A stretch of 39,064 nt of DNA from Bacteroidota bacterium (GTDB lineage Bacteria; Bacteroidota; Bacteroidia; Bacteroidales; UBA7960), in the NCBI GenBank assembly GCA_018335675.1, contig JAGXRQ010000044.1, forward strand, positions 1 through 39,064, in the 5' to 3' direction. The position numbers were made by a program, and so were the translations under genes. The notes beneath the pieces are model-generated. The model was not told the origin of the DNA, ran no database searches, and saw nothing but the letters and a program-made list of their open reading frames with translations. This document shows, one piece after another, positions 30,339-36,575 of the stretch. Positions within the stretch are counted from its first letter, which is position 1. Each line of letters starts with the position of its first letter.

Positions 30339-32408
30339 TTATTTGTCAGACTGTTGCTTTAACTGAAATAACTCATTTTCTAATTCTTCTACCAAACGAG
30401 TAAGGTCGTCTATTTTTTCACTGTTGACCCTCTCCTGTTCCTCCATTTGCTCTTGAACCTCAATAAGTTCTTCCATGTTTCTTTTCATGTCTTCTTCCTG
30501 CGCTCTCATTTCATCTGCCTGCTTTTGTGACATTTTAAGCAACATGTTTGTTTTTATATTATTCTTAACATATTGCAATGTAGAAGCTATATTTTCAGCA
30601 ATCTTCTCAACAAATTGAATCTGATACTGTTCAAGTTTATTAAATGAAGCTATTTCCATTACACCATAAACTTTATTATCCTTCAAGAGAGGCACAATAA
30701 GAAGACAATCAGGATTAGCGCTACCAAGACCGGATTCAATCTTTATATATGTTTGTGGTATATCAGTGATATATATAGTTTTCTTTTCTACTGCACAAGA
30801 CCCAATAAGACCTTCACCACGTTCAAATCTATTCTCAAGATACTTTCTTCTATCGTAGGCGAAGGCAGCTTTCAATTCAAAAAATACATTATCAGAATCG
30901 TCATTTATTATAAAAATACCACCTTGATTTGCATCCAGATATTTTACAAGATTATGAATAATCTCAAAGGATAGTTTTTCAATATCATCATTATTTTGTC
31001 TTAATATTTCGGCAAACATATTAAGGCCTTCATTAACCCAATTGGTTTTCCCAACAGCCTGCATTTGCTTTTCCATTTCCTCCTGCTTGGCTGTTTTAAG
31101 GTTTTCTCGCATTTGAAGCAGAGATTTTGCAAGATGGTCGTCTTGAACTATATCATCAAGCTGAGCCTCAAGGTTTCCTTCCCCAATTTTTCTTGCAAAC
31201 TCAGATTTGCTAATGTATCCATCAATATAAATGTTTAATGCATTTGCCATCTCTTGCATTTCATCACCGGTAGAAATATCTAATTTCAGCGTTTTATCAA
31301 CCTTACCTGCTGAAATCATTTTTATGGCATGAGTGAGTTTTTGAATCGGTCTTGATATGTTATCAGCCAGCAACCATATAATAAACGCCACTATTAAAAG
31401 GCCAATTACACCTGCTAATAAAGCAATTCTATATGTATGTGATGCTGCAGCTAGAATAGATTTTCTGGGGAATGCCACACCCAAAAACCATGGAGTACCA
31501 GAATCGCCAATTTGAACAACTGCAACTGAAACATAATAGTTCTCATCTTTGAACTTTGTATCAAAACTAAACGGACGACCATCTTCAACAGCTTCACGGA
31601 ACAAACCAGCTTTTTCATCAACAAGCCCAATACTAAAGATATCTCTTCCTATATTTACCCTTTCAGGAAAGGTAACAATCTTGCCAGACTGCGTAAATAA
31701 AAAAGCATAGCTACCATCTAATGGCTGATAACCATCAATTATAAACTGCAATGATGCCAAAGATACATCTACTCCGACAACTCCTATAAACTCCCCATCT
31801 TTAACAACAGGAGCAACCATATTCGTTTGCAGGATATCGTCTTGAGCAGCACCTGTGTATGAGTAATAGTAAGGATCTATAACCGTTTCCTTTCCTCGTC
31901 TTTTAACAAGATTGAAAATTGTACCACTTAATACTTCTGAAGGATTTTGCTCAATATACTCACTTAGCTTAATATCTCCATTGTCACGATAATAGATGTA
32001 GCGAAAATTACCAAGAATTGTACTTCCCAATCTATTTATATACAAACTATCCCTATTGTCAATTGTAGCCGGAGCTAGAATACTCCAAGCTGATAACATA
32101 TCCTTGTTTTCAGTCAAAATATGCTTAAGCAATTTACTATAAAAATCCCTTCTATTGTCTTCAGGAATCATCTCATGTGCGTCAAATGTTTGCTTTAAAT
32201 ATCTTGTAATCTGCATATATTCATTAAGGTCAGACTTTGCAAGATTTGCATACTGTCCGGCATATGAATCTGCGAGGTCAGTGCTAAACTCATCAAGAAG
32301 CTTGCGAGAATTTGAGCCAACATAAGAAGATACTGCAATTATAACTATTGCAGTCGCAGTTAATAAATAAACTAAAATTCTGGATTTTACTTTAAGCTTC
32401 TTTGCCAC
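30339..32408 (-). CDS. dCache-HAMP-GAF sensor protein without output domain
   Basis: A 689-residue membrane protein. A transmembrane helix at ~11-28 is followed by an extracytoplasmic double-Cache-like sensor (~35-325, with APVVKDGEFIGVVGVDVSLA) and a second helix at ~328-348. A HAMP-like segment (NISRPIQKLTHAIKMISAGK) and a second HAMP-like stretch lead to a GAF domain (~465-610, with RGEGLIGSCAVEKKTIYITD) and a glutamate-rich coiled coil to the C-terminus. There is no kinase, cyclase, phosphatase or methyl-accepting signalling hairpin, so it must work through a partner, perhaps binding a kinase through the coiled coil (inference). Ligand unknown. Confidence 0.8.
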   Translation of the reverse strand: MAKKLKVKSRILVYLLTATAIVIIAVSSYVGSNSRKLLDEFSTDLADSYAGQYANLAKSDLNEYMQITRYLKQTFDAHEMIPEDNRRDFYSKLLKHILTENKDMLSAWSILAPATIDNRDSLYINRLGSTILGNFRYIYYRDNGDIKLSEYIEQNPSEVLSGTIFNLVKRRGKETVIDPYYYSYTGAAQDDILQTNMVAPVVKDGEFIGVVGVDVSLASLQFIIDGYQPLDGSYAFLFTQSGKIVTFPERVNIGRDIFSIGLVDEKAGLFREAVEDGRPFSFDTKFKDENYYVSVAVVQIGDSGTPWFLGVAFPRKSILAAASHTYRIALLAGVIGLLIVAFIIWLLADNISRPIQKLTHAIKMISAGKVDKTLKLDISTGDEMQEMANALNIYIDGYISKSEFARKIGEGNLEAQLDDIVQDDHLAKSLLQMRENLKTAKQEEMEKQMQAVGKTNWVNEGLNMFAEILRQNNDDIEKLSFEIIHNLVKYLDANQGGIFIINDDSDNVFFELKAAFAYDRRKYLENRFERGEGLIGSCAVEKKTIYITDIPQTYIKIESGLGSANPDCLLIVPLLKDNKVYGVMEIASFNKLEQYQIQFVEKIAENIASTLQYVKNNIKTNMLLKMSQKQADEMRAQEEDMKRNMEELIEVQEQMEEQERVNSEKIDDLTRLVEELENELFQLKQQSDK

Positions 32409-32583: not shown

Positions 32584-32591
32584 TTACTTTG
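32584..32591 (+). promoter_or_regulatory. Possible -7 box of the his operon
   Basis: TTACTTTG resembles TAnnTTTG with one mismatch and ends 9 bp before the leader-peptide ATG at 32601. The his transcript would then begin almost at the leader start codon. A TATAAT at 32569-32574 is an alternative. Low confidence. Confidence 0.35.
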
Positions 32592-32600
32592 CCTACAAAT

Positions 32601-32666
32601 ATGCGAAAAATGTTTTTATTCAATTTACATCTTCATCATTTTCATACTTGCACTCAGGCGAGGTGA
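32601..32666 (+). CDS. hisL: Histidine operon leader peptide
   Basis: A 21-codon reading frame ending in TGA. Residues 1-9 are MRKMFLFNL, residues 10-15 HLHHFH, and residues 16-21 TCTQAR. Four of six consecutive residues are histidine. It lies directly upstream of a terminator and hisG, which is the hallmark of ribosome-mediated his attenuation: low charged tRNA-His should stall the ribosome on these codons. The last codons overlap the antiterminator arm (32652-32660), so a ribosome finishing at the stop codon would cover that arm. No Shine-Dalgarno sequence is seen, as for most genes here. Confidence 0.85.
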   Translation: MRKMFLFNLHLHHFHTCTQAR

Positions 32667-32713
32667 GAATGATATTTTGTAATTTATAATATAATTATAA
32701 AACCCGTCTGAGT
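32652..32713 (+). promoter_or_regulatory. his antiterminator (arms 2 and 3)
   Basis: ACTCAGGCG (32652-32660), just after the His codons of the leader, pairs with CGTCTGAGT (32705-32713) over 9 bp including one G-U. The second arm is also the left arm of the terminator, so the two structures exclude each other. Stalling on the His codons leaves the first arm free and should favour this pairing and read-through into hisG. An AT-only hairpin (32683-32690 with 32694-32701) lies in the loop. Confidence 0.8.
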
Positions 32714-32730
32714 AAACAGGCGGGTTTTTT
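32699..32730 (+). terminator. his attenuator terminator
   Basis: ACCCGTCTG (32702-32710) pairs with CAGGCGGGT (32717-32725) over 9 bp with one G-U and a 6-base loop. The stem extends by A-U pairs and is followed by a run of six T. It sits 48 bp before the hisG start codon and after the leader peptide, so it is a regulatory rather than an end-of-operon terminator. Confidence 0.9.
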
Positions 32731-32747
32731 GTTTCTTACCTATACTA

Positions 32748-32760
32748 GTTTACTCAGACG
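32748..32760 (+). promoter_or_regulatory. Third arm complementary to the his terminator
   Basis: GTTTACTCAGACG is perfectly complementary, over 13 bp, to CGTCTGAGTAAAC (32705-32717), the left arm and loop of the terminator. It lies between the terminator and hisG. It is also a near-copy of the antiterminator arm at 32652-32660. In read-through mRNA it could take over pairing with the terminator arm. Confidence 0.75.
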
Positions 32761-32777: not shown

Positions 32778-33635
32778 ATGAGTAAACTAAAAATTGCAAT
32801 TCAGAAAAGCGGCAGGTTGAGCGAAAAATCGCTTGATCTTTTAAAAGAGTGTGGGATAAAACTCCCTAATGGAGACAGGAAACTTAAAACAGAAGCGAAA
32901 AACTTTCCTATTGAGATTTTGTATCTGAGAGATGATGACATCCCTCAATATGTTGAACAAGGTGTTGCCGATGTTGGGATACTTGGCGAAAACGAAGTTC
33001 ATGAAAAAGGAAAAAATGTTTTACAAATAAAGAAACTAGGGTTTGCAAACTGCAAACTTGCTCTTGCTATTCCAAAGGACGAAGAATACAATGGCATAAA
33101 TTGGTTTGAGAACAAAAAAATTGCAACATCATATCCAAAGATTCTTGAAAAATTCTTTAAAGAAAAGGCCATTGCTGTTGAAGTAGAGGAGATAAGTGGC
33201 AGTGTGGAAATTGCGACAGGCATAGGATTGGCAAATGCTATTTTCGACATTGTAAGTACCGGTAGCACATTGATAATGAATGGACTTAAGGAGGTTGAAG
33301 TTGTTATGAAAAGTGAAGCCGTTCTTATTGCAAACCCAAATCTAAATAATCTCAAGAAAGAAATCCTTAACCAACTTATCTTCCGAATTACTGCTGTAAG
33401 AAATGCATCTGAAAATAAATACATACTTCTGAATGCACCAAATAGTGCTATTGATCAAATATCCAAGGTTTTACCAGGGATGAAATCGCCAACAATCTTG
33501 CCTCTTGCAGACAAAAGTTGGAGCAGTCTGCACTCTGTTGTTAAGGAAGATGAATTCTGGGATATAATTGGGCAGCTCAAAGAACTGGGCGCCCAAGGCA
33601 TTCTGGTTGTACCAATTGAAAAAATGATAATCTAA
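32778..33635 (+). CDS. hisG: ATP phosphoribosyltransferase, long form
   Basis: A 285-residue enzyme that joins ATP and PRPP in the first step of histidine synthesis. The N-terminal part has IAIQKSGRLSEKSLDLLKEC and the PRPP-binding loop DIVSTGSTL. The C-terminal ~75 residues (from about FRITAVRNASENKYILLN) form the HisG_C regulatory domain, which binds histidine for feedback inhibition, so no HisZ is needed. First structural gene of the operon, 48 bp after the attenuator; 19 bp before hisD. Confidence 0.95.
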   Translation: MSKLKIAIQKSGRLSEKSLDLLKECGIKLPNGDRKLKTEAKNFPIEILYLRDDDIPQYVEQGVADVGILGENEVHEKGKNVLQIKKLGFANCKLALAIPKDEEYNGINWFENKKIATSYPKILEKFFKEKAIAVEVEEISGSVEIATGIGLANAIFDIVSTGSTLIMNGLKEVEVVMKSEAVLIANPNLNNLKKEILNQLIFRITAVRNASENKYILLNAPNSAIDQISKVLPGMKSPTILPLADKSWSSLHSVVKEDEFWDIIGQLKELGAQGILVVPIEKMII

Positions 33636-34955: not shown

Positions 34956-36575
34956 ATGGACTCAATAAATATTTGCGACCTTGCAAGGCAGAATATTCTA
35001 AAACTCAAACCCTATTCATCTGCCAGAAGCGAGTTTACAGGAAGTTCCGGAATATTTCTGGATGCAAATGAAAATCCTTACGGAAAACTAAACAGATATC
35101 CCGACCCTTTGCAAATGGAGCTTAAAAAAATAATTAGTTCACAGCAAGACATTGGCATTGAAAACATTTTCATAGGCAATGGCAGTGACGAAATAATTGA
35201 TTTAGCAATACGGGTTTTTTGTGAGCCAGGCAGAGATCAAATCTTAATTTTCACACCAACATATGGTATGTATAAGTTTTTGGCTGACGTTAACAATGTT
35301 GGCATAATTCAAAATCAACTAGATGAAAACTTTCAGATAAATATTCCTGAGTTTGAAAAAACTATATCAGAAAATAATGTGAAGCTTATTTTTATTTGCT
35401 CCCCGAATAATCCAACTGCAAACATCATAAATGGAATTGACAAGATATTTAGCAGATTTAATGGTATTGTTTTTATTGATGAAGCATATATCGAATTTTC
35501 AGACACACCTTCATTTGCCAAAGAAGTAACTTCTGTGCCAAATATTATCGTTTCACGAACATTAAGCAAAGCCTATGGCATTGCAGGAGCCAGAGTAGGA
35601 GCTGGTTTTGCGAATAAGCAAGTAATCTCACTTTTTACCAAAACTAAATATCCTTACAATGTCAGCAAATTAAACCTGAAAGCAGCCATAGACATTTTAA
35701 GAGACAAGGATGAGTTTGAGCGCATAAGGTTAGCTATAATAATCCAAAGGGAATTCCTTGAAAAAGAGCTGTCAAGCTTAGGATTTGTAAAAAAAGTATT
35801 TCCAACTGACGCCAACTTTATACTAATTGAAGTTGAAAATGCTCAGAAAGTTTATTCTGGTCTGGCAGAAATTGGAATAATAGTTAGAACCCGTGATTCT
35901 GAGTTAAAGAACTGTATTAGAATAACTGTTGGGAGCCCTTATGAGAATAAGCAACTTATAGAAGCATTGAAAACACTTGACAAAAAAGACATACTTGGAA
36001 CTAGAGAAAGTGCCATTAAAAGACAGACAAATGAGACTAACGTTGATGTTGTAATAAACATTGACGGAAGCGGGAAAAGTTTCATCTCAACAGGACTGAA
36101 TTTTTTCGACCACATGCTTGAGCAAATTGCAAAACATGGCAACATCGACATCAATATAACTGCGGTTGGAGATATAATGACTGATGAGCACCACACAGTA
36201 GAAGATGTTGGAATTATTCTAGGAGAAGCTTTTAATAATGCTATTGGTAATAAAAATGGCATCGAAAGATATGGGTTCCTGCTTCCGATGGACGATAGTC
36301 TGGCGCAGGTTGCTATTGACTTTGGAGGAAGGCCATATTTGGTTTGGGATGTAAGTTTCAGAAGAGAAATGATTGGAGATATGCCAACAGAATTATTTGA
36401 ACATTTCTTCAAATCATTTAGCGATAATGCCAAATGCAATATCAACATAAAAGCGGAAGGCGAAAATGATCACCATAAAATTGAAGCTATTTTTAAAGCA
36501 TTCGCAAAATCAGTAAGACAAGCTGTTAGCAAAACAAACGATAATTCAATACCAAGTACAAAAGGGATATTATGA
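34956..36575 (+). CDS. hisCB: Fused histidinol-phosphate aminotransferase / imidazoleglycerol-phosphate dehydratase
   Basis: One uninterrupted 539-residue frame. Residues 1-~343 are a PLP-dependent HisC with NENPYG, SPNNPTAN and the PLP lysine Lys205 in SRTLSKAYGIAGARVG. Residues ~350-539 are a complete IGPD (the dehydratase half of HisB): IKRQTNETNVDVVINIDGSG, the metal-binding FFDHMLEQIAKHG, DEHHTVEDVG, and DHHKIEAIFKAFA, ending STKGIL. A linker of only a few residues joins them. The usual bifunctional HisB joins IGPD to a histidinol-phosphatase instead; here that phosphatase is missing. The two activities are non-consecutive steps with the phosphatase-independent order IGPD then aminotransferase, so a product hand-over is conceivable (inference). 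It overlaps hisH by 4 bp. Confidence 0.9.
   Translation: MDSINICDLARQNILKLKPYSSARSEFTGSSGIFLDANENPYGKLNRYPDPLQMELKKIISSQQDIGIENIFIGNGSDEIIDLAIRVFCEPGRDQILIFTPTYGMYKFLADVNNVGIIQNQLDENFQINIPEFEKTISENNVKLIFICSPNNPTANIINGIDKIFSRFNGIVFIDEAYIEFSDTPSFAKEVTSVPNIIVSRTLSKAYGIAGARVGAGFANKQVISLFTKTKYPYNVSKLNLKAAIDILRDKDEFERIRLAIIIQREFLEKELSSLGFVKKVFPTDANFILIEVENAQKVYSGLAEIGIIVRTRDSELKNCIRITVGSPYENKQLIEALKTLDKKDILGTRESAIKRQTNETNVDVVINIDGSGKSFISTGLNFFDHMLEQIAKHGNIDINITAVGDIMTDEHHTVEDVGIILGEAFNNAIGNKNGIERYGFLLPMDDSLAQVAIDFGGRPYLVWDVSFRREMIGDMPTELFEHFFKSFSDNAKCNINIKAEGENDHHKIEAIFKAFAKSVRQAVSKTNDNSIPSTKGIL

Follow-up and report, generated by a model that had tools for sequence, protein, structure and literature searches.

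The segment from 32610 to 32733, lying in front of hisG, is almost certainly a ribosome-mediated transcription attenuator of the his operon, judging from its sequence. It belongs to a Bacteroidota bacterium of the lineage UBA7960 (the window, as used here, is the whole stretch of 39,064 nucleotides that was analysed). Past the terminator lies a further arm that can pair either with part of the terminator or with the start of hisG, and very probably this is an attenuator whose fifth arm is functional, in whatever role. Sequence and comparison with relatives together establish the leader, the helices 1:2, 2:3, 3:4 and 3:5 (named by the arms they join), and the complementarity 5:6. No reading other than classical attenuation covers the leader, the competing helices and the conservation of these elements.

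The leader and its helices

The short leader ORF is enriched in codons for the operon's own amino acid: four of its 18 codons, at 32628, 32634, 32637 and 32643, specify histidine, and it closes before hisG with a stop codon at 32664. A sequence-only reading of the window had seen a 21-codon leader. The in-frame ORF it described, 32601-32666 (...HLHHFHTCTQAR), is present as stated, but the second ATG, 32610, is the most likely start of the leader, because relatives conserve that position; in a sequence-only alignment (A1), made from 29 leaders of the same type as the window's, the counterpart of this ATG is where the leader begins. Two culturable relatives, Flavobacterium soli DSM 19725 (L113) and F. 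subsaxonicum (L098), share the window's anatomy. The upstream ATG at 32601 is not conserved in relatives and was rejected as the start.

The neighbour upstream (30339-32408) points the opposite way, and the leader must therefore have its own promoter. There is a candidate for the Bacteroidota -7 element at 32584-32591 (Table 1), and a perfect TAnnTTTG is found within 60 nt before the first leader ATG in 60% of 162 relatives, as against 4% of shuffled sequences. The divergent neighbour itself, on the minus strand, has Cache, HAMP and GAF domains, and Pfam found no output domain in it.

Between the leader and hisG stands an intrinsic terminator with a 12-pair stem, a T-run and covariation, which reads ACCCGTCTG-AGTAAA-CAGGCGGGT at 32702-32725 and continues into the T-run at 32725-32730. 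Both it and the antiterminator arm ACTCAGGCG, at the end of the leader ORF, lie exactly where the sequence-only reading had put them, and arm 3 is common to terminator and antiterminator, as it had claimed. It had also called the attenuator complete. The leader, antiterminator and terminator are real, but hairpin 1:2 and the arm past the terminator had been overlooked. Folding, shuffles and covariation all have the antiterminator 2:3 excluding both the terminator and hairpin 1:2, whose 5' arm (32635-32651) overlaps the His codons. Against dinucleotide shuffles, the 2:3 duplex gives z -5.3; the fold of the whole leader gives z -6.0, none of 200 shuffles being equally stable. The helix energies in the window are -11.0 kcal/mol for 2:3, -17.8 for 3:4, -18.5 for 3:5, and -11.9 for 5:6.

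Table 1. Features of the his leader region in the window
Feature	Position	Strand	Remarks
Candidate promoter -7 element TTACTTTG	32584..32591	+	7/8 of TAnnTTTG, 18 nt before ATG 32610
Leader peptide ORF	32610..32666	+	18 codons + TGA, MFLFNLHLHHFHTCTQAR; relatives start at equivalent of 32610
Hairpin 1:2 (anti-antiterminator)	32635..32673	+	32635-32651 with 32658-32673; 16 pairs, -17.6 kcal/mol
Arm 2, antiterminator 5' arm ACTCAGGCG	32652..32660	+	End of leader ORF; pairs with 32705-32713 (helix 2:3, 9 pairs)
Intrinsic terminator	32699..32733	+	Stem 32699-32710 with 32717-32728 (12 pairs), T-run 32725-32730
Arm 3 CGTCTGAGTAAAC	32705..32717	+	Common to antiterminator 2:3, terminator 3:4 and helix 3:5
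Arm 5 TAGTTTACTCAGACG	32746..32760	+	32748-32760 with arm 3 (13 pairs); 32746-32756 with hisG start (11 pairs)
hisG	32778..33635	+	First gene of regulated operon
Arm 6, start of hisG, TGAGTAAACTA	32779..32789	+	UG of start codon to codon 4; complementary to arm 5, pairing with TAGTTTACTCA (32746-32756, 11 pairs)

Conservation across Bacteroidota

The sequence-only reading had staked its case on relatives, where the leader frame and the pairing of the arms should be conserved if there is indeed an attenuator here, and it had proposed aligning related hisG upstream regions. That alignment, across Bacteroidota relatives, bears it out: the His codons and the leader frame are conserved, and the arm pairings are kept through compensatory changes.

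Of 160 distinct hisG upstream regions, drawn from relatives of the window and also from named genomes, 129 contain a short His-rich ORF with a terminator after it. The same rule applied to any other amino acid succeeds in at most 15 of the 160 (serine being the highest), and applied to histidine on the reverse strand it succeeds in none. The His codons of these leaders are mainly CAT (649 vs 136 CAC). Flavobacteriaceae, sampled at roughly one genome for each genus, have a His-rich leader with a terminator at 104 of 107 hisG loci.

Such numbers bear on the idea that the His-rich ORF is there by chance and that the operon is controlled by a T-box or a metabolite riboswitch. Precedent exists, in that his genes are under T-boxes in Firmicutes and Actinobacteria (PMC9413887). 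The idea is nonetheless extremely improbable, already contradicted both by the specificity of the leader ORF for histidine and by Rfam, in which no family reaches its gathering score for the window or for any of 16 relatives (17 loci in all), the T-box covariance model among those unmatched. Even up to E 10, the window yields only chance-level matches, with neither T-box nor His_leader among them. The attenuator would work like His_leader, but it does not reach the gathering threshold of that family and is not filed as a member.

Covariation was counted on alignment A1. The terminator, 3:4, has 94% of cells paired, with double changes in four pairs (7 cells), and helix 2:3 has 87%, with double changes in three pairs (5 cells). 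The best covariation of all belongs to helix 3:5, 86% paired, with double changes in six pairs (15 cells) and a score of 0.227, compared to 0.157 for shuffled alignments and no more than 0.066 when slid. Helix 1:2 is 82% paired and has 10 cells with a double change. Its score of 0.163 exceeds that of shuffled alignments (0.128) but rises to 0.197 when slid by 3 columns. It slides well because the CAT repeats are self-similar, and by covariation it is the least certain of the four helices.

A few loci depart from the pattern. L057 (in genome G063) keeps the leader ORF, with no terminator before hisG and with its hisG match split over two frames; this his locus is either decaying or misassembled. 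Four loci of family f61 (L063, L064, L066, L069) have conserved leaders ending HHFHHSS before hisG, in which the scan found no terminator. Perhaps these are a Rho-dependent or a purely translational version.

A fifth arm and the start of hisG

The partner of arm 5 is the 5' arm of the terminator plus the loop. The two change together: matched insertions in arms 3 and 5 are seen in L098, L100 and L116, and a matched deletion in L097. Arm 5 is significant in 75 of 105 Flavobacteriaceae leaders of the window's type (one genome per genus), and arm 3 prefers its own arm 5 to swapped ones with p 5e-5 in each of two sets, by tests that ignore relatedness.

A perfect inverted repeat of 13 bp, lying around the terminator and close to hisG, might also suggest a DNA operator for a his repressor, the leader being incidental. 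It is too much to expect of an operator, however, that the distance between its halves should range from 13 to 70 nt across relatives, or that many of the kept pairs should be G-U, which have no symmetry in DNA. On these two grounds the operator is rejected, and I regard it as very improbable; besides, at least some 100 bp separate the repeat from the promoter upstream.

It is harder to say what the fifth arm does as RNA. The initiation site of hisG is complementary to arm 5, and the alternative helix 3:5 can capture arm 5. In the first set of relatives, arm 5 pairs better with the start of its own hisG than with swapped ones (mean -10.5 against -8.6, p 5e-5); the outcome holds for 38 less redundant loci, and in the Flavobacteriaceae set the p value is again 5e-5. 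A CTCA core is found in the spacer of 52 of the 60 Flavobacteriaceae loci whose hisG starts with ATGAG, compared to 6 of the 45 with other starts (p 1e-14); for the first set the figures are 44/51 and 2/11. The TGAG core of arm 3 is present in nearly all Flavobacteriaceae loci of both groups. Flavobacterium loci whose hisG begins ATGAGTAC have GTACTC in arm 5 and GAGTAC in arm 3. None of 28 leaders with other types of terminator has a start-codon arm. The associations between arm 5 and the hisG start are strong but not conclusive, because the tests ignore relatedness, the two sets have a few genomes in common, and several of the Flavobacterium matches amount to one event.

Suppose, then, that the system is a transcription attenuator and nothing else, arm 5 serving, in read-through mRNA, to stop arm 3 from folding back into the terminator. 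Its benefits would lie in stability, processing, and ease of leader translation, and its match to the hisG start would be a by-product. This falls somewhat short of an even chance, in my judgment. It would account for the strongest covariation lying in 3:5, for the retention of 3:5 in 23 Flavobacteriaceae whose hisG does not start ATGAG, and for four loci (L061, L094, L097, L175) in which arm 5 tracks arm 3 and not the hisG start. It does not account for the loss of CTCA from arm 5 in 39 of the 45 loci without an ATGAG start while TGAG is retained in arm 3, nor for L003, L004 and L081, where arm 5 fits the hisG start better than it fits arm 3, nor for the preference of arm 5 for its own hisG start over swapped ones. 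A probable second layer, translational, in which the start codon would be sequestered in leak transcripts, is how I read these latter observations, with the balance of belief level between yes and no.

A proposed mechanism

I propose that the leader ribosome senses His-tRNA. That it stalls, that transcripts terminate, the order in which the arms fold and any effect on translation are all inferred. When His-tRNA is ample, the ribosome would reach the stop codon and arm 2 would be covered or held in 1:2. With arm 2 unavailable, terminator 3:4 would form and transcription would end near 32730. Under a shortage of His-tRNA, the ribosome would stall on arm 1, made up of the His codons, and arm 2 would be freed to pair with arm 3. 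No terminator would then form, and RNA polymerase would enter hisG. Arm 5, made next, would dock on the part of arm 3 left free by 2:3 and capture arm 3, and the hisG start codon would remain open. Some polymerases would leak past a terminator that has formed. In their transcripts arm 3 would be locked in 3:4, and arm 5 would pair instead with the hisG start and block its translation.

The arms are synthesized in the order 3, 4, 5, 6, and this, along with the helix energies, means that arm 5 can take arm 3 away from arm 2 before the hisG start is made. At equilibrium, 2:3 plus 5:6 (-22.9 in the window) is favoured over 3:5 (-18.5), so an open start upon starvation needs kinetics, through the order of folding, or a stalled ribosome. 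That need is the weak point of the model. The predicted accessibility of the start codon in the two states is 0.29 vs 0.32 in the window, a small difference, and 0.31 vs 0.41 over 52 loci, a modest one. I hold it an open wager, equally weighted on each side, that a double lock of this kind, arm 5 either capturing arm 3 or sequestering the hisG start, operates in a large part of Bacteroidota.

The operon and the history of hisG

The operon runs through hisG, hisD, a hisC-hisB fusion, hisH, hisA and hisF, to 38614. The fusion is a single 539-aa ORF (34956-36575, plus strand) that joins an aminotransferase to an IGP dehydratase and has no HisN phosphatase domain, unlike the hisNB found in all Bacteroidetes considered by one survey (PMC8305728). 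The window's genome (98% completeness) gave no match to ilvD, to component I of anthranilate synthase (trpE), or to homoserine dehydrogenase. The bacterium is probably auxotrophic for several amino acids, yet it has kept a his operon that is complete and regulated.

Only one attenuator lies before hisG in the window. Twenty relative loci carry two complete His attenuators in series: L008, L012 and L016 (g6); L026, L029, L030, L032, L033, L036, L038 and L049 (g3); L011 and L022; L133; L136, L137, L139, L153 and L156; and L148. (The first "leader" of L079 was rejected from this list as a chance ORF.) They span several separate clades of HisG, including the cultured Carboxylicivirga marina and C. 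sediminis, and this doubling of an attenuator for one amino acid apparently took place in several clades. TAnnTTTG precedes the first leader in 62% of cases and the second in 5%. With a promoter element before the first leader only, one transcript probably passes two His checkpoints.

In the HisG tree of L001-L168, the window's clade crosses Flavobacteriaceae, Weeksellaceae, Chitinophagaceae and Bacteroidales, and the window's own family lies in three distant places. Its HisG is 72-80% identical to proteins of other families, some from Flavobacterium, and about 60% identical to most of its own family. Tree and identities suggest that hisG, with its type of attenuator, probably moved between families by horizontal transfer.

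Relation to known systems

The his attenuator itself is a known kind of system; the fifth arm makes it a variant of which no description was found in the literature searched. The enterobacterial attenuator (hisL; Rfam His_leader) has the same clustered-His leader peptide before hisG, the same placement of the His codons inside arm 1, and the same competition among 1:2, 2:3 and the terminator. Here, by contrast, the four His among 18 codons have other residues between them, there is no Shine-Dalgarno sequence and no match to Rfam His_leader, and a conserved arm 5 lies beyond the terminator and reaches the hisG start. A 2004 comparative study of attenuators is said to have mentioned Bacteroidetes/Chlorobi.

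In mechanism, the system would resemble vmlR of B. subtilis (PMC9226507). That leader too has a short upstream ORF, an anti-antiterminator, an antiterminator and a terminator. An additional hairpin conceals its initiation site in leak transcripts, and upon induction a leader segment disrupts this hairpin. The signal for vmlR is antibiotic stalling, whereas here it would be shortage of His-tRNA, and what is hidden there is the Shine-Dalgarno sequence, here the start codon. The B. subtilis trp leader (PMC12288461) likewise combines transcription attenuation with a hidden initiation site of the first gene in read-through RNA, but its sensor is the protein TRAP rather than a ribosome on a leader ORF. 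The tandem loci of the relatives resemble Salmonella mgtCBR (PMC3641672) in having two short ORFs in one leader. Those ORFs answer different signals (proline and ATP), whereas a Bacteroidota tandem consists of two His-rich leaders, with a terminator for each.

As of 2010, no leader-peptide system was said to be known beyond Proteobacteria and Actinobacteria, ermC excepted (PMC2965389). The survey of his genes across the superphylum speaks of attenuation in a single place, in connection with enterobacteria (PMC8305728). Within the window's phylum, the transcriptome of Flavobacterium psychrophilum offers candidates, with strong clues for leader-peptide attenuation before amino-acid operons (PMC9723704); the main text does not mention histidine and describes no arms, covariation or fifth arm. 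Bacteroidota ribosomes do not recognize Shine-Dalgarno sequences, and mRNA structure tunes initiation (PMC9976891, PMC6847099). Under those circumstances, concealment of the start codon would be the natural counterpart of hiding a Shine-Dalgarno sequence.

Significance

The attenuator should let the bacterium transcribe its his genes only when histidine is short. Leader-peptide attenuation requires a ribosome close behind RNA polymerase, and a conserved, covarying example in 104 of 107 Flavobacteriaceae hisG loci implies that coupling of transcription with translation is used throughout a phylum where such coupling has received little study. Since none of the 17 scanned loci matches any Rfam family, his operons of the window's type probably go unannotated. 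The fifth arm suggests a translational lock by hiding of the start codon in bacteria without Shine-Dalgarno control. If true, the double lock couples ribosome-mediated attenuation to occlusion of the start codon without any Shine-Dalgarno pairing.
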